28,923 nucleotides of DNA from a virus. The stretch is taken from IMG/VR virus record IMGVR_UViG_3300030430_003980, positions 1 to 28,923 of that record. One strand, 5' to 3'. Positions 11,477-19,111 of the stretch are shown one piece after another. The notes beneath the pieces were generated by a model. It made no database searches. It was not told where the DNA came from and saw only the letters and a program-made list of their open reading frames with translations. Position 1 is the stretch's first letter. Each line of letters begins with the position of its first letter. The translations under genes and the position numbers were made by a program.

Positions 11477-12628
11477 ATGGCAGATTTTAAAGGAAACAAT
11501 AATTCAAATACGATTCGAACAGCGTTTGAGAGAGCAAGATATAAACTCGATGCTTTCAACGACTCTGATGTCCAAGTTATGGATTTCAACTTTGCTGAGA
11601 GGACATTTTACGGAAGAGTAAATAGACAAATTGACCCTGTTATTGCTAACGAAAACTTCATAGTTAATCTTTACAATCAAAATACAGCAGTTATGAATTT
11701 TGTCGCGGATCAGTTTAGGGAAATGTACATAAGATACAGCAACGCACTAAACCTCAGCCTTATAAACAATGAAGATCCAAACCTATCAGAACTAAGCGTT
11801 ATTCGCGGTTGGGAAGACCCAATAAACTTATATTCCAATTTTATGTCCTCATTTATGGACTCTTTCTTGCGAGAAAAAATGATTCCTAATGAAAAAAAGA
11901 TACGATCCTTCCAAGACTTTTTAGTCATGTTTGAGGCACACGTCCTTGAAAACGACATCAACGCAAAGACAACATTCTCAGGCTTCATGAAGTCAAGACA
12001 GTCCTCTATCTTTAACACAGGCTTAGCATTGCAAGTGGCCCCTGTCGGTTTCGCAGATGATTCTATCAAAGAAAGTACAATTCTTGACTCACCAAACTAT
12101 GCATTTTTTATGAATATGGCCAAACAATTTGGATTTTCCGTCAATCTCCAAAATCCCAGCGTGCTGGTGTCTGACTTGGCTCATCCAACTACAACACAAT
12201 TTCGAGGAAGATATGATCTATTCTCCGTCAGTAGGGTATTCAGCAAGCAATACCTTAGAACATTCAACTTTGACTTTGATCTATTATCGCAGTATCTCAT
12301 GGATACATATAACTCTTTTGTTCACTTGAAACCAAACTTAAAAGAAATATATATATGCAATAACAAAACTAAATCAAATATATCTAGAAGAAATAATATT
12401 GATAGTATAGATTATAATATTATATTATTATTATATATTAAAATAAGAAATATGGAAGAAATTTTTCCGTTTTCCCATTCCGAGATGAAATCAATACACA
12501 GTACCTCCGTAAGATTGTTTGACATCACACCAGAAAAAGCTTTAGAATTCATCGAATCTCAGTTTCGAAGCAAATACAATACCAAAGAGGGTTCTCTTAC
12601 CTACTACAAAAAAAAGTTTGAAAAATAA
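11477..12628 (+). CDS. Putative virion structural protein, 383 aa
   Basis: ATG start behind AGGGG, 23 bases after the giant hub-like gene and last of the structural run. Segments include FAERTFYGRVNRQIDPVIAN, a helical middle (MNFVADQFREMYIRYSNAL; FQDFLVMFEAHVLEND), MAKQFGFSVNLQNPSVLVSD and a late part YIKIRNMEE with a final GSLTYYKKKFEK. The 'FGF.v..n.P..lvaDl..p' phrase is one I have seen in uncharacterised virion proteins of marine myophages, but I cannot name the function. Residues about 290-325 are encoded by a markedly AT-rich tract (12342-12453) with many AAT, ATA and TTA codons, flanked by AAGAAATAT at both ends. The frame stays open through it, and the flanking protein pattern continues, so I do not read it as an insertion. 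A promoter starts two bases after the stop. Confidence 0.5.
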   Translation: MADFKGNNNSNTIRTAFERARYKLDAFNDSDVQVMDFNFAERTFYGRVNRQIDPVIANENFIVNLYNQNTAVMNFVADQFREMYIRYSNALNLSLINNEDPNLSELSVIRGWEDPINLYSNFMSSFMDSFLREKMIPNEKKIRSFQDFLVMFEAHVLENDINAKTTFSGFMKSRQSSIFNTGLALQVAPVGFADDSIKESTILDSPNYAFFMNMAKQFGFSVNLQNPSVLVSDLAHPTTTQFRGRYDLFSVSRVFSKQYLRTFNFDFDLLSQYLMDTYNSFVHLKPNLKEIYICNNKTKSNISRRNNIDSIDYNIILLLYIKIRNMEEIFPFSHSEMKSIHSTSVRLFDITPEKALEFIESQFRSKYNTKEGSLTYYKKKFEK

Positions 12629-12629
12629 C

Positions 12630-12658
12630 TTGACAAGCTTATCTGAATATGTTATCTT
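12630..12658 (+). promoter_or_regulatory. Sigma-70-type promoter for the DNA polymerase operon
   Basis: TTGACA (12630-12635), 17-base spacer, TATCTT (12653-12658) with an extended -10 TGT just before it. It begins two bases after the stop of the last structural gene, so it separates the virion module from the replication module. It overlaps the upstream ATG at 12649, which therefore cannot be the polymerase start. Confidence 0.75.
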
Positions 12659-12705
12659 ATATTAACCGTCAAACTTATTATAACACATTTCGGAGGACCC
12701 TGCAA

Positions 12706-13893
12706 ATGTTTTTTCAACTTTTAGATAATAAAATGGAATGTGCCGGCACTTACGTGGATGGACAGTTCATTTGGGATAAAATTCCTGAAGGCATTTCGAA
12801 AACATGGAGCTACTCAGACCATCTTTATGGTAGAGATATCGATTATGCCCATTTGCTGGTGGCTGGTAAGTCACTCAGCGAGATTTGCCCACCTCACCTA
12901 ACCGATCGATGGATAGAAGCAAACAATTTGCTGAAGAGTCATTACAAAGCAATCAACACATCATTCATCGATGTATCAGATGTGTGCTTTTACGATCTTG
13001 TTCCACAAAAACACCTTCAACATTACTTTGATACGAAGAATGAGATAACCAAGTGGGTGTTTGAGAATGTGGAGAAGCCTGAACACTACGGCTTGCTGAA
13101 AAGAGCACAAGCCGCAGTCAAAGAGTTGAAGCAACATCCAGTGAACCTCAACTCTTTCGCAGTCTACGTTAGTGGTGCTGATTGCATGAAGGCAAAGCAC
13201 CTTTACGAGCAGTTCGGTGAGACAACTCCATATGTTGATTACGACATCTTTGGAACAGTCACTGGACGATTGACAACAAAGAAAAATTCTTTTCCTATTA
13301 TGAATCTTAAGAAGGAATTGAAGGTGCATGTGAGACCAAACAATGATGCATTTCTTGAACTCGACTTCAACGCGGCAGAGATTCGAACAATGCTTGCCCT
13401 GCAAAACCACAAACAACCTGAGGAGGACATACATGAGTGGAACATCAAAAACATTTTTAAACAAGATCTTAGCCGAGAAAAAGCTAAAGAAAAATTATTT
13501 GCTTGGCTCTATAACGAAGAGTCAAACACAATCCAATCAGATTTCTACGATAGGGAAAGCCTTAGAGAAAGATATTATGACGGAGAAAAGGTTCAAACCC
13601 CTTTCGGTAGAACAATCCATGCTCCCGTTCGTAAAGCGCTCAACTACCTATTACAATCGACTTCCTCAGACAACACTCTTGACCGCTTTTGCAAAATTTC
13701 TAACTTTCTTAGGGCAACGAGATCCCATGTTGCTTTCTTTGTTCATGATAGCGTTGTCATCGACTTACACAAAGATGACCGGAGATTAATTCCCGAACTT
13801 GTCGAAATGTTTGGAGACACGAAACTTGGTAAGTTCAAAGTAAACTGTTCACTAGGAAAAAATCTAGGAAACATGAGAGAATTCTCATGGTAG
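12706..13893 (+). CDS. polA: Short family A DNA polymerase (PolA-type), lacking a recognisable 3'-5' exonuclease
   Basis: Start chosen at ATG 12706 because CGGAGG lies 9 bases upstream and an earlier ATG (12649) falls inside the promoter; this gives 395 aa. Motif A is DFNAAEIR at 220-227 (catalytic D220), just after TGRLTT. Motif B is R257-x3-K261-x3-F265-x3-Y269, the O-helix spacing of Pol I R754/K758/F762/Y766, but the usual Gly after Tyr is Asn. Motif C is HDS at 347-349, with the catalytic Asp kept and the usual Glu replaced by Ser. F265 matches Pol I Phe762. The roughly 200 residues before motif A show no DxE exonuclease motif, and the protein is far shorter than Pol I (928) or T7 polymerase (704). 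It is probably the replicative polymerase, working with the downstream helicase, SSB and UvsX. Proofreading, if any, must be encoded elsewhere. Confidence 0.85.
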   Translation: MFFQLLDNKMECAGTYVDGQFIWDKIPEGISKTWSYSDHLYGRDIDYAHLLVAGKSLSEICPPHLTDRWIEANNLLKSHYKAINTSFIDVSDVCFYDLVPQKHLQHYFDTKNEITKWVFENVEKPEHYGLLKRAQAAVKELKQHPVNLNSFAVYVSGADCMKAKHLYEQFGETTPYVDYDIFGTVTGRLTTKKNSFPIMNLKKELKVHVRPNNDAFLELDFNAAEIRTMLALQNHKQPEEDIHEWNIKNIFKQDLSREKAKEKLFAWLYNEESNTIQSDFYDRESLRERYYDGEKVQTPFGRTIHAPVRKALNYLLQSTSSDNTLDRFCKISNFLRATRSHVAFFVHDSVVIDLHKDDRRLIPELVEMFGDTKLGKFKVNCSLGKNLGNMREFSW

Positions 13894-14090
13894 GTGAACT
13901 CGTAATGGTAACAGGTTGCGAAACTAGCGGATATGAAGACGGCACAATTGGAATAATCGTGAAATTTGAAACACTCGGAGCACTATATACTATATACTGG
14001 GTGCTTATGCCCGACGATGAAGAGATTCCCATGTGGGACAGTGAGTTTGAGGTTATAAGTGATAGAAGGCGACCTGATAATAGTAGTTGA
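13887..14090 (+). CDS. Small SH3/KOW-like protein, paralogue 1
   Basis: A 67-aa ORF whose ATG overlaps the polymerase stop; an alternative ATG at 13905 is less good because it would cut the shared N-terminal motif. It reads MVGELVMVTG, then DGTIGIIVKFETLGALYTIYW, then EEIPMWDSEFEVI. It shares with the next two genes and with one at 27084 the layout 'GeLv.V......G.iGIIV......Y.V.....EE........f'. A small all-beta barrel of SH3 or KOW type fits this spacing of Gly and hydrophobic residues. No function is known to me. Its acidic Glu/Asp content argues against simple DNA binding. The gene is real on overlap and paralogy grounds; the fold is inference. Confidence 0.6.
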   Translation: MVGELVMVTGCETSGYEDGTIGIIVKFETLGALYTIYWVLMPDDEEIPMWDSEFEVISDRRRPDNSS

Positions 14091-14277
14091 ATCACTCCCA
14101 GATTGGTACTGGCTGACTTACACAACAGGTCATATTGGAATTATAGTCAAAAAAAGAAAAAACGTTTTTAAATCATTATATCCAATCGTTGAAGTTTTTT
14201 TCTTCCACAACGAAGAAATACATCCAGTCCCAGAACATTTTATCAGATTGTTGAGCGAAATAGATGAAGGAAGGTGA
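14059..14277 (+). CDS. Small SH3/KOW-like protein, paralogue 2
   Basis: A 72-aa ORF starting at GTG 14059 inside the end of paralogue 1, so translation is probably coupled. It reads MIEGDLIIVVESLPDWYWLT, then TGHIGIIVKKRKN, then PIVEVFFFHNEEIHPVPEHF and ends with FIRLLSEIDEGR. The 'P..FIRLL.E.DE' ending also appears in the 27084 paralogue (EAFLRRLKDEDE). GTG is supported because MIEGDL aligns with the starts of its neighbours. Function unknown; a beta-barrel fold is inferred. Confidence 0.6.
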   Translation: MIEGDLIIVVESLPDWYWLTYTTGHIGIIVKKRKNVFKSLYPIVEVFFFHNEEIHPVPEHFIRLLSEIDEGR

Positions 14278-14470
14278 CTTGATTACAATAGTAAAGAGTC
14301 CATGGGACCGCCGAGCACTATTTGGATACAAAAATGGAGACATTGCTATCGTTCTCGAAGTGTTTCCATATCCAAACCAAATATCACTGCCTTCAATAAG
14401 AGTTTTTGTTTTTGTCTCTGAAAAAATAATTACAATACCAACATTATACGCACATAAAATAGGAGATTAA
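14264..14470 (+). CDS. Small SH3/KOW-like protein, paralogue 3
   Basis: A 68-aa ORF, ATG at 14264, overlapping paralogue 2 by 14 bases. It reads MKEGDLITIVKSPWDRR, then YKNGDIAIVLEVF, then SIRVFVFVSEKIITIPTLYA. It keeps the 'EGDLI.iV.S......G.I.IV' start but lacks the C-terminal FIRLL part and looks more divergent. The three tandem copies suggest local duplication. The final TAGGAG of this gene also serves as ribosome binding site for the tubulin-like gene that starts two bases after its stop. Confidence 0.55.
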   Translation: MKEGDLITIVKSPWDRRALFGYKNGDIAIVLEVFPYPNQISLPSIRVFVFVSEKIITIPTLYAHKIGD

Positions 14471-14471
14471 A

Positions 14472-15308
14472 ATGATCTTAGTAGGATTAGGCGAAGCAGG
14501 AAAAAATATCGCCACCTTATTCAAACCACACAGTAAAAATTACAAGATAATAATTCTTGACGAAAACGATGGTATTGATAAAAAAGATTCCGTTGAACAA
14601 TATGACGAAGATCCAATCAAATTTAAACATAGAGGGCTCAAATCTCACGATGAAGCCATTTTGTTTGTTTGTGGGAGTGGTAAGATAGCTGGAGCGTCTC
14701 TACGCGTTCTGGAGGCTCTGAAGGCCTATAAAACAACGGTTTGCTATATCGTTCCTGACTTGGAGTTCGCATCCAAACTTGAACAGAGAAGACACAGAGT
14801 ACATTTTGGGGTACTACAAGAGTACACCCGCTCAGGTATGTTGCATGAAATGATTGTTTTGGACAACAAAATTTTATTTGAGATTGCTGGACACGGATCG
14901 GCATCAAACTACTACGAAAAAGTCAATTTTTTTATTTACAATACAATTCAAAATTTGATGTACATGAAGCATGTTGATCCTACGTTTGGAAAACTACACG
15001 AGAAGAAAGATATTTCTAGAATATCAACCATCGGCGTTGGATCACTGGACACAGATGATGAAAAACTATTGTATAATTTAGCTAACATCACCGAGTCAAT
15101 GTATATGATGAATGTTGAAGAGGAAGATATGGACAACGATCAAAATCTAATTCCAACTTGTCAACAAATTGTTCGAGAAAATAAAAGAAAAGAACGAGAC
15201 ACTTCTTTTGCTATATGGCTGAGTGATACCGAGAATCACTTTTATTCAGCACATTACACCCATTTCATACAAGAAGAAAATAAAACTTCTTTCGGAAGTT
15301 CCGAATGA
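14472..15308 (+). CDS. Divergent tubulin/FtsZ-fold protein
   Basis: A 278-aa protein, ATG behind ATAGGAG. Read against FtsZ, the landmarks fall in order. A T1-like loop MILVGLGEAGKNIA lies at residues 1-14. The phosphate loop GSGKIAGAS (68-76) stands where FtsZ has GGGTGTG. It is followed by LRVLEALKAYKTTVCYIVP and a 'LEQRRHRVHFGVL' helix like FtsZ 'F.EG.RR...A..Gl..L', and then HEMIVLDNKILFEIAG, like 'vDtLIvIPNDrLL'. HVDPTF (167-172) sits at the T7 catalytic loop N-x-D-x-x-D, with only the first Asp kept (D169), followed by ISTIGVGSL like 'alMGiGxA'. The protein is shorter than FtsZ and has lost the second T7 acid and the Gly-rich signature. It may therefore bind nucleotide or polymerise atypically, or be inactive. 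The neighbouring genes do not explain its role. Superfamily by eye only. Confidence 0.55.
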   Translation: MILVGLGEAGKNIATLFKPHSKNYKIIILDENDGIDKKDSVEQYDEDPIKFKHRGLKSHDEAILFVCGSGKIAGASLRVLEALKAYKTTVCYIVPDLEFASKLEQRRHRVHFGVLQEYTRSGMLHEMIVLDNKILFEIAGHGSASNYYEKVNFFIYNTIQNLMYMKHVDPTFGKLHEKKDISRISTIGVGSLDTDDEKLLYNLANITESMYMMNVEEEDMDNDQNLIPTCQQIVRENKRKERDTSFAIWLSDTENHFYSAHYTHFIQEENKTSFGSSE

Positions 15309-15529
15309 TAATTACTGTAGATATGGAGTTTGCTATGGATAGAATGAAGATTAAATATGAAATCAACAGATTGTTAAACATTGAAGAAGGAATTCTTCTT
15401 AAACTTGCATATGAATCTAGATACTGCTCCGATGAGCAATTAAGATATGTATCTAAAAAGATTTTTGAGATAAGCGATATGATACTTAGGCTAAAAACAG
15501 CATTGCTTGAGTTTGATAATGAAAGGTGA
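15305..15529 (+). CDS. Small helical protein of unknown function
   Basis: A 74-aa ORF whose ATG overlaps the tubulin-like gene's stop (ATGA), so it is translationally coupled to it. Composition is helical and charged: MDRMKIKYEINRLLNIEEGI, then LKLAYESRYCSDEQLRYVSK and a final ILRLKTALLEFDNER. I recognise no family. A partner protein for the tubulin-like product is possible from the coupling alone. Confidence 0.5.
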   Translation: MIITVDMEFAMDRMKIKYEINRLLNIEEGILLKLAYESRYCSDEQLRYVSKKIFEISDMILRLKTALLEFDNER

Positions 15530-16806: not shown

Positions 16807-17580
16807 ATGGCTATTAATATAGAAGCAATGCGAGCAAAGCTCGAACAATCAAAGAACGGAAAAAAAACATCCGGTAGAAATTCTACTATGTGGAAGCCAC
16901 AAGCCGGCGCACAACACATCCGTATCTTACCAACAGCAGACGGCGACCCGTTCCGTGAATTCCACTTTCACTATAATGTAGGAAAGAATCCTGGGATCTA
17001 CTGTAACAAGCGAAATGATGGTGGTGAATGCCCTATCTGTGACTTCGCATCTAAACTTTGGCGAGAGGGTACTGAAACAGACGATCAAAACCTCAAAAAC
17101 GAAGCTAAAAAGTTGTTTGCTCGAAAGCGTTACTACTCACCAGTATTGGTTCGTGGAAATGAATCAGAAGGTGTAAAAATCTGGGCTTATGGAAAGACTG
17201 CCTATGAAACTTTGTTGGGCTATGTGCTTGATCCTGATTATGGAGATATCACAGATCCACAAACTGGAACAGATATCAAGTTGACTTATACACTTGCTTC
17301 TGGACCTGGTGCTTTCCCTAAAACTGCTCTTCAGCCACGACGTCGTCCATCAATCTTATGTGACGATGCAGTTGGAAACTGTGAAGAGTTGTTGGACTCG
17401 GTACCTGTAATCGATAATCTGTTTGAACGCAAAACCGTTGATGAAGTTCAGGCTCTGTTGGATGGTTATTTGTCCTCCGACGATCTAGCGGAGTCGTCTT
17501 CTAGCGAGACACAACGCGGTAAATCACAAACAGGACAGGATGTAGATAAGGCTTTCGCGGCATTCATGAATGAAGAATAA
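16807..17580 (+). CDS. gp32-like single-stranded DNA-binding protein
   Basis: A 257-aa protein, ATG behind TTAGGAG. The N-terminus is basic (KLEQSKNGKKTSGRNS), followed by MWKPQAGAQHIRILP. A gp32-type zinc site is visible: H53 or H55, then C66-x8-C75-x2-C78 within YCNKRNDGGECPICDF. A Ser/Glu-rich linker and an acidic tail ending KAFAAFMNEE match the gp32 C-terminal domain that recruits replication partners. It coats single-stranded DNA for the phage replisome and recombination. Slightly shorter than T4 gp32 (301 aa). It has its own promoter and terminator and a long leader, so independent, possibly autogenous control is likely. Confidence 0.85.
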   Translation: MAINIEAMRAKLEQSKNGKKTSGRNSTMWKPQAGAQHIRILPTADGDPFREFHFHYNVGKNPGIYCNKRNDGGECPICDFASKLWREGTETDDQNLKNEAKKLFARKRYYSPVLVRGNESEGVKIWAYGKTAYETLLGYVLDPDYGDITDPQTGTDIKLTYTLASGPGAFPKTALQPRRRPSILCDDAVGNCEELLDSVPVIDNLFERKTVDEVQALLDGYLSSDDLAESSSSETQRGKSQTGQDVDKAFAAFMNEE

Positions 17581-18004: not shown

Positions 18005-19111
18005 ATGACAAAAGCAGGCAAAATAGATATTAATGCGATGAAGAAATTCGTCAACAAAAAAGTTGGGCTTGATATCGCCCATGACCTTAATGAAGACAAT
18101 CCTACCGAGGTTAAAGAATGGATTCCAACTGGTTCGCGTTGGTTGGACTCTATTGTCTGCCGAGGGAAGATGGCTGGTATTCCTGTTGGAAAAATCACAG
18201 AATTGGCTGGATTATCCTCAGCCGGTAAATCTTATATGGCTTGTCAAATCGCAACTCGAGCACAAAAAATGGGACACTGTGTCGTATACTTTGACGCCGA
18301 ATCTGCGATTGATCCCTTGTTCCTTGAGAATTCAGGGATCGATATTAACAATGACTTCTTGTACATTCAGGCCGTCTCCGTTGAGAAAACATTGGAGACA
18401 ATTGAGGATCTCATGTCCGAATATCCAGAAACCCAGTTTCTATTTATTTGGGATTCTATCGCGGCAACTTCTTCCGAGAAGGACCTCGAAGGAGATTTTA
18501 ATCCTCAATCATCAATGGCGGTAAAGCCTCGGATCTTTGCGAAAGCATTTCCGAAACTTACTATCCCATTAGCAAATCAACAGTGTACTCTCTTGTTGAT
18601 CAATCAACTAAAAACTAACATCACTTCTAATATTGCAGAAGCTATGACGACACCTTATACCGCTCCTGGTGGTAAAGCAATCGAATACTTCTCTTCGCTT
18701 AGAATATGGCTTACAAAGCGCAAAGCAAAGGCTGCACATGTCCTAGACTCTAGTGGTCTTCGCATTGGCTCTGAAGTTAAGGTTAAGATTGAAAAGTCTC
18801 GCTTCGGATCTGAAGGTCGCACATGTGGCTTCAAGATTCTTTGGGGCAAAGATGTAGGGATTCAAGATGAAGAATCGTGGCTTGAAGCATTAAGAGCATC
18901 TGGCTCCAATCGTTTCAAGCCTGGTGCTTGGAATAAGATCTATGACCGTGATGGTAAAGAGTTCAAGTTCCAACGCTCACAATGGATAAAGAAACTTCAA
19001 AACGAAGAATTTAGATCAGTTGTGTTCGACATCATGGATGAAGAAATCATTAAATTATTTGAGACCGAAGGTAAGAATTTTCGTCTCGAAGGAGAGTCCG
19101 AAGAAGGTTAA
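18005..19111 (+). CDS. uvsX: UvsX/RecA-type recombinase
   Basis: A 368-aa protein, ATG directly after the previous stop (TAA-ATG), with GTAGGAG upstream. RecA core: Walker A GLSSAGKS at 69-76, then VVYFDAESAID, a Walker B-like strand QFLFIWDSIAATSS, and the L1/L2 region with LLLINQLKTN and PGGKAIEYFSSLRIWLTKR. It forms filaments on single-stranded DNA and drives strand exchange in recombination-dependent replication and repair. Its length is close to T4 UvsX (391 aa) and the C-terminus is acidic (GESEEG), as in UvsX. It is the last gene before a clear terminator; the gp32-like gene lies just upstream, as expected for functional partners. Confidence 0.92.
   Translation: MTKAGKIDINAMKKFVNKKVGLDIAHDLNEDNPTEVKEWIPTGSRWLDSIVCRGKMAGIPVGKITELAGLSSAGKSYMACQIATRAQKMGHCVVYFDAESAIDPLFLENSGIDINNDFLYIQAVSVEKTLETIEDLMSEYPETQFLFIWDSIAATSSEKDLEGDFNPQSSMAVKPRIFAKAFPKLTIPLANQQCTLLLINQLKTNITSNIAEAMTTPYTAPGGKAIEYFSSLRIWLTKRKAKAAHVLDSSGLRIGSEVKVKIEKSRFGSEGRTCGFKILWGKDVGIQDEESWLEALRASGSNRFKPGAWNKIYDRDGKEFKFQRSQWIKKLQNEEFRSVVFDIMDEEIIKLFETEGKNFRLEGESEEG

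Follow-up and report, generated by a model that had tools for sequence, protein, structure and literature searches.

What has become of the tubulin fold in a phage gene that lies among DNA replication genes, and does its product still bind nucleotide, hydrolyse it and assemble? The gene (positions 14472–15308, plus strand) lies in a window of 28,923 bases, the whole stretch of DNA analysed here, out of a virus record of 29,458 bases. Its ORF begins with ATG exactly where the original prediction had placed it, with a Shine-Dalgarno-like AGGAG at 14461–14465, six bases before the start codon. It encodes a protein of 278 aa, named TUB here, whose description as a tubulin/FtsZ-fold protein draws on the ORF call, an AlphaFold model and structural comparisons by Foldseek and VIA-align. 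Measured against five close relatives, the dN/dS of TUB is 0.075–0.10, which marks strong purifying selection on the gene.

The window encodes a tail sheath, two tail-tube proteins, a baseplate hub, a family-A DNA polymerase, gp32 and UvsX, together with an exonuclease, a DnaB-like helicase, a ribonucleotide reductase and a thymidylate synthase. Judged by its genes, the phage is a myovirus whose tail and replication genes are of the T4 type, and the phages that carry TUB are T4-like myoviruses by their head, portal, sheath and gp32 genes. The two tail-tube genes (1619–2179 and 2192–2818) are adjacent, each is best matched to phrog_4542, and they look tandemly duplicated.

Predicted structure of TUB

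We modelled TUB with AlphaFold2 on an alignment built from IMG/VR relatives. The model has two domains (mean pLDDT 82.5, pTM 0.84), and a family member about 32% identical to TUB (L155) gave a model of higher confidence (pLDDT 91.7, pTM 0.90). When the TUB model was searched against the PDB with Foldseek, all of the 50 matches listed were FtsZ, TubZ or CetZ (best E 3.1e-11, probability 1.00). VIA-align placed TubZ first for TUB, with Z 22.6 over 275 residues, followed by CetZ (22.5) and FtsZ (21.7), while the L155 model was closest to CetZ (Z 25.1 and 24.0), then TubZ (22.9) and FtsZ (22.4). Across these two distantly related members the structural matches thus span 258–275 residues at Z 22–25. 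The best matches in a viral structure library were phage proteins named FtsZ or tubulin, PhuZ among them.

The predicted structure contains the full N-domain, the central helix H7 and the C-domain of the tubulin fold. The C-terminal tubulin-type domain, delimited by DSSP of the models, occupies residues 183–267 (15018–15272, plus strand), and the alignment runs across 275 of the 278 residues. What is missing from both models are H2, H8 and H9 of FtsZ, the helix names being assigned from the order of elements; in neither model does a helix separate H7 from the next long strand. The tract around T7 is poorly modelled in TUB (mean pLDDT 57 for residues 171–180), whereas the same tract reaches 87–89 in L155. 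In one clade of the family (L155, L161, L168, L175, L177, L179 and others), a variable linker is followed by a conserved C-terminal peptide, LDDQDI[SG], which brings to mind the tail by which FtsZ, or a phage ssDNA-binding protein, binds its partners.

On the strength of these models, the assignment of TUB as a full-length but reduced protein of the tubulin/FtsZ fold and family is well supported. The original prediction, a divergent phage tubulin/FtsZ fold with altered nucleotide and catalytic loops, is therefore borne out by the models and by the profile comparisons below. It had proposed a Foldseek search of a predicted structure, and among the matches listed that search returned only the tubulin superfamily, over nearly the whole length. 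Neither outcome that would have spoken against the prediction appeared: a complete tubulin N-domain with its GTPase fold was modelled, and no unrelated family was confidently matched beyond an N-terminal strand-helix-strand.

Profile comparisons with the tubulin superfamily

Comparison of profiles, which does not depend on the models, supports the same relationship. With HHalign, the family profile scored 40.6 against PhuZ and 31.2 against FtsZ, above the maxima of 28.9 and 23.7 reached in 100 block-shuffles, and reversed alignments scored about 15–17. The PhuZ match has a pairwise P of 7e-5 and a probability of 62%, and covers residues 2–93 only. In the FtsZ comparison the unguided register placed T1 on T1, N132 on the Asn of IPN, H7 on H7 and 'TFGK' on the T7 'DFAD'. 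FtsZ-like motifs had been picked out by eye as occurring in the right order, and HHalign recovers that order with a score above every shuffle.

An HMM of 67 family members, run against 177,635 PDB sequences, listed no more than two chains at E of 10 or below; both are CetZ, at an insignificant E of about 1, and the alignment sets N132 on the CetZ VDN and Y148/N152 on YDxxN. In NCBIfam, the model touched by most members was TIGR00065 (ftsZ), with 9 of 67 and a best E of 2.8e-4. PF00091 was touched by 6 of 67 (best E 0.019) and did not match TUB itself, so that the family goes unrecognised by these two curated FtsZ/tubulin models. Used alone as a query, TUB drew Pfam and PHROG touches at E above 0.01 only, and phmmer against the PDB gave Cas1 and others at E above 0.07 only. 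A DEAD-box identity (best E 1.8e-4) was rejected because the TUB model matches tubulin folds throughout.

A modified but conserved nucleotide pocket

We examined conservation of the pocket across 104 distinct family members. The T1 glycine loop (VGLGEAGKN, residues 4–12; 14481–14507, plus strand), with GLGEAGKN as its core at residues 5–12, is nearly invariant: G5 and G7 are kept in 103 of 104, A9 in 102 and G10 in all. D30, at the end of strand S2 in the T2 position (14559–14561, plus strand), is Asp in 103 of 104 and may be compared with the 'IDTS' of PhuZ.

The T4 phosphate loop reads GSGKIAG at residues 68–74 (14673–14693, plus strand), and the family motif is G[SA]Gx[IV][SA]G. The canonical signatures of the superfamily are GGGTG[T/S]G at T4 and NxDxx[D/E] at T7 (PMC12583498); the former is absent from the family. 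Conservation of G68, G70 and G74, which had been suggested as a check, holds in 104, 100 and 99 of 104 members. The proposed replacement of GGGTGTG by GSGKIAG is accurate for TUB, but K71 is not family-wide (68 of 104), and because it varies in the wider family we dropped the idea that K71 is a new T4 catalytic residue.

The strand 'IVLDN' stands for FtsZ 'IPND' and ends at N132 (14865–14867, plus strand), which occupies the T6 position of FtsZ IPN and CetZ VDN by HHalign and HMM alignment, respectively, and is present in 104 of 104. On H7, Y148–N152 (14913–14927, plus strand) aligns with CetZ YDxxN; N152 is invariant (104/104) and position 148 is Y, F or W in 102 of 104. The T6 Asn, the stacking aromatic of H7 and the H7 Asn or Asp are the guanine contacts of tubulin and FtsZ, and we infer that N132, Y148 and N152 contact guanine in TUB too. 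Since these contacts are invariant, the pocket is best described as modified rather than dead, and TUB probably binds GTP or GDP.

A different ligand has to be weighed here. GLGxAG followed about 20 residues later by an Asp is also the fingerprint of an NAD-binding Rossmann fold, D30 being that near-invariant Asp, and TrkA_N was the commonest Pfam touch of the family (36 of 67 members, best E 8.8e-6). TUB might accordingly be an enzyme or sensor with a tubulin-like fold that binds NAD(P) or another ligand. However, in the members displayed the TrkA_N match covers residues 2–32 only, equivalent to profile positions 2–33 of 116, and no match to a whole NAD-binding domain was found; the touch reflects the strand-helix-strand common to Rossmann and tubulin folds. 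The residues that would serve guanine (N132, Y148 and N152) are conserved, the whole chain matches tubulin folds, and PhuZ, too, carries its 'IDTS' at the D30 site. We regard a non-GTP ligand as the least likely of the readings considered, and a very improbable one.

Loss of the T7 acid and helix H8

The T7 region of TUB reads HVDPTFGKL (residues 167–175; 14970–14996, plus strand), and both alignment and models show it to be without the catalytic acid and without H8 after it. In the HHalign register T171 occupies the position of FtsZ D209 and K174 that of D212. An acid stands at the D212 position in none of the 104 members, most of which have K, N, S, R, T, A, G or Q there, and at the D209 position in 45 of 104. 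The NxDxx[D/E] motif is thus missing with its catalytic acid, as is the counterpart of the catalytic T7 aspartate of PhuZ. D169, which the original prediction had singled out as the surviving T7 acid, proved to be misassigned: its column is E, K, D or T across the family. Just before H10, D223 is near-invariant (98 Asp and 3 Glu of 104) and might serve as a catalytic acid instead, which leaves the loss of hydrolysis short of certain.

Given the loss of both the T7 acid and H8, hydrolysis of GTP by TUB through the usual mechanism, in which a neighbour in the filament takes part, is improbable, and canonical dynamic protofilaments are unlikely on the predicted structure. The second point follows also from the role of these elements elsewhere, since the subunits of tubulin, FtsZ and phiKZ TubZ/PhuZ filaments meet at T7 and the base of H8 (PMC3678025).

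The main rival to a non-filamentous TUB is a static scaffold, in which stable GTP-dependent filaments, joined through a modified interface, would centre, segregate or enclose replicating phage DNA, as a PhuZ or TubZ naturally dead for hydrolysis might do. We rank it so because a hydrolysis-dead PhuZ (D190A) still forms stable filaments with GTP (PMC4244570). PhuZ is also the closest family by sequence profile, the structural match to filament formers extends over the whole length of TUB, and the LDDQDI[SG] tail, in the one clade that has it, is reminiscent of tails that serve a function in FtsZ and TubZ. Against this stand the interface parts themselves, TUB having no H8 and no conserved T7, and the finding that non-dynamic PhuZ mutants upset DNA positioning (PMC4244570). 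On balance we consider such a scaffold unlikely.

A large family found in phage contigs

A scan of IMG/VR with a diverse alignment confirmed relatives in at least 593 of the 600 candidate stretches listed. Members are 266–290 aa long and 25–95% identical to TUB, and several lie on contigs of 148–194 kb; a record of 183.9 kb holds a single TUB copy by the family HMM. In that record the head protein is nearest to those of an uncultured phage, RM378, immuto and Mel-JY01. On these sequence grounds the lineage may plausibly infect Bacteroidota (compare PMC7198788).

Outside these contigs the family was not encountered. Searches with five members by tblastn gave no credible relative in 50,697 phage records, a phi1402 match at E=3 being noise, and the family HMM detected none in RM378 (whole), immuto (150 of 160 kb) or Mel-JY01 (41 of 190 kb). 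GTDB genome contigs, searched with an alignment of the close branch, contained no TUB relative, a cellular absence that covers close relatives. No model in PHROGs, Pfam or NCBIfam describes the family, and no description of it was found in the literature searched, which takes in few of the subscription papers. The family may have been missed so far because no cultured phage with the gene was found. We also looked with PF00091 for a second tubulin-like subunit in 13 records and found none; this is a weak search, because PF00091 does not detect TUB either.

Taken with the profile comparison, the predicted structures make TUB the first representative of a new family in the tubulin/FtsZ fold superfamily. 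Its fold, and probably its ancestry too, is that of tubulin and FtsZ, but it is not FtsZ, tubulin, TubZ, PhuZ or CetZ as these are defined.

TUB is a core gene between DNA polymerase and gp32

In the window, TUB is preceded by a family-A DNA polymerase domain (12649–13893, plus strand; PF00476 1.5e-8, phrog_17 2.1e-15) and followed by a gp32-like ssDNA-binding protein (16807–17580, plus strand; PF08804 4.1e-16, phrog_1192 7.2e-30), with a UvsX/RecA-like recombinase in the same module (18005–19111, plus strand; phrog_97 2.9e-58). To see how far this arrangement extends we used 142 distinct loci, taking as denominators the loci with enough flank. The polymerase lies upstream of TUB in 90 of 91 and gp32 downstream in 104 of 105, overlapping in some. 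A search with gp32 alone avoids selecting on TUB; among the 80 closest gp32 matches, 55 loci had at least 1.8 kb upstream, and TUB was present in 55 of 55, 53–968 bases before gp32. This constancy beside gp32 holds for this lineage only. The synteny of polymerase, TUB and gp32 shows that their linkage is under selection, which does not amount to contact between the proteins.

Flavobacterium phage immuto, which is close by its head protein and the nearest cultured relative that we read, shows the module without TUB: its syntenic region holds PolA, two small genes, an ssDNA-binding protein, a recombinase, an exonuclease, DnaB and RNR. Because immuto keeps this gene order, the replication machinery can work without TUB, a point against the replication role proposed below. 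TUB is thus core to one large lineage and dispensable for the replication module generally.

Several small genes share the neighbourhood. A 74-aa helical protein (ORF at 15305–15529, plus strand) had been described as translationally coupled to TUB, and its ATG does overlap the TUB stop as ATGA at 15305; across relatives, however, the helical protein is found by HMM in only 29 of 105 distinct loci. We therefore regard it, from its sequence and distribution, as a family of its own and a clade-specific addition, and dropped it as an obligate partner. In L138, L068, L060 and L048, TUB is followed by a second small family of 60–94 aa, carrying '...GITILLIDGAPFAVE...', which replaces or precedes the helical protein in some relatives. 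Upstream of TUB are three overlapping ORFs of 67–72 aa (13887–14090, 14059–14277 and 14264–14470) with similar openings (GELVMV, GDLIIV, GDLITIV...GDIAIV), which appear to be tandem paralogues coding for a small beta-rich protein and have syntenic copies in 56–72 related loci. The L155 clade has a small gene (cluster c14, 43 loci) between polA and TUB, whose product starts LVRDRIPEII and is, by eye, MazG or phosphoribosyl-ATP pyrophosphohydrolase-like. Before the polymerase, a 383-aa ORF (11477–12628) has no Pfam or PHROG match and a homologue in 154 related loci; it may be the N-terminal half that the short (414 aa) polymerase lacks, or else a partner dedicated to it.

The position of TUB bears directly on a further reading, that it is a decoy with a normal nucleotide face at the top and no functional bottom face, which would cap host FtsZ and block division. 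One face kept and one degraded is the expected look of a capping subunit, and phages often inhibit FtsZ, for which T7 Gp0.4, lambda Kil and P1 Icd are examples. The inhibitors listed are, though, small proteins and not FtsZ homologues, and TUB is an obligate core gene of the replication module, beside gp32 and under strong purifying selection, with which a capping decoy fits poorly. We therefore judge this reading possible but improbable, and favour a role in replication.

Proposed function

Because TUB is a core gene fixed between DNA polymerase and gp32, we infer, with moderate support, that it takes part in the replication or recombination of phage DNA. Our preferred reading joins this role to the state of the pocket and T7: TUB would be a GTP or GDP binder of a new family, without the usual hydrolysis or dynamic filaments, acting in replication or recombination with gp32 or the polymerase. 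Its nucleotide binding and the loss of canonical hydrolysis and protofilaments have good support; the reading as a whole is tentative, at a little under an even chance. In mechanistic terms, TUB would be loaded with GTP as a monomer or short stable oligomer, partner gp32 or the DNA polymerase, and hold or position replicating phage DNA. A sharper version is more doubtful: in a very large, uncultured T4-like lineage, a tubulin-superfamily protein would have turned core replication factor, binding GTP without hydrolysing it or assembling into filaments, and working with gp32 at the phage replication fork. If that version is true, TUB would to our knowledge be the first protein of this fold to serve replication instead of building a filament.

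Two kinds of FtsZ/tubulin family protein were recognised in jumbo phages by a review that covered 224 of them (PMC7824862). TUB would add a further viral lineage, a large one without a name in Pfam, PHROGs or NCBIfam. No other tubulin-superfamily protein compared here is as short, and TUB lacks the catalytic T7 acid by nature. This opens two questions to test: how small a part of the tubulin fold suffices to bind GTP or to assemble, and whether tubulin relatives help to organise DNA replication in phages that form no nucleus.

Comparison with known tubulin-superfamily proteins

FtsZ (TIGR00065, PF00091) has the same order of secondary structure as TUB and its motifs align in order, but TUB has neither the GGGTG[T/S]G nor the NxDxx[D/E] signature and is without H2, H8 and H9. 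For a naturally non-hydrolysing T7, a parallel that we take to be one of working only is beta-tubulin, in which K254 stands in the place of the catalytic acid, at the position of TUB K174. The parallel with the N-site pairing of beta-tubulin ends there, no second tubulin-like subunit having been found with TUB in the 183.9-kb record or, by the weak PF00091 search, in 13 records. TubZ (4ei7, 2xka), which serves plasmid and phage segregation, is the best VIA-align match of TUB. At 278 aa, TUB is shorter than TubZ (chains of 380–414 aa) and PhuZ (315–327 aa), as the original prediction had noted.

The archaeal shape proteins CetZ (3zid, 4b45, 4b46) are the best structural match of L155; a GQAG-type T1 is common to both, and the VDN and YDxxN guanine contacts of CetZ align with the TUB family. 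CetZ chains are larger (373 and 395 aa), their T7 acids, 'DLGD', are replaced in TUB in the HMM register, and CetZ is archaeal whereas TUB was found only in phage contigs. PhuZ of the nucleus-forming jumbo phages is, like TUB, a phage protein of the tubulin fold and gave the best profile score; its 'IDTS' resembles T2 of TUB at D30, and its T4 likewise is not GGGTGTG. PhuZ, however, exceeds the whole TUB family in length, has a catalytic T7 aspartate and shows dynamic instability (PMC4244570, PMC3678025), where TUB is without H8 and the T7 acid, and, unlike PhuZ, TUB sits beside gp32 in T4-like phages.
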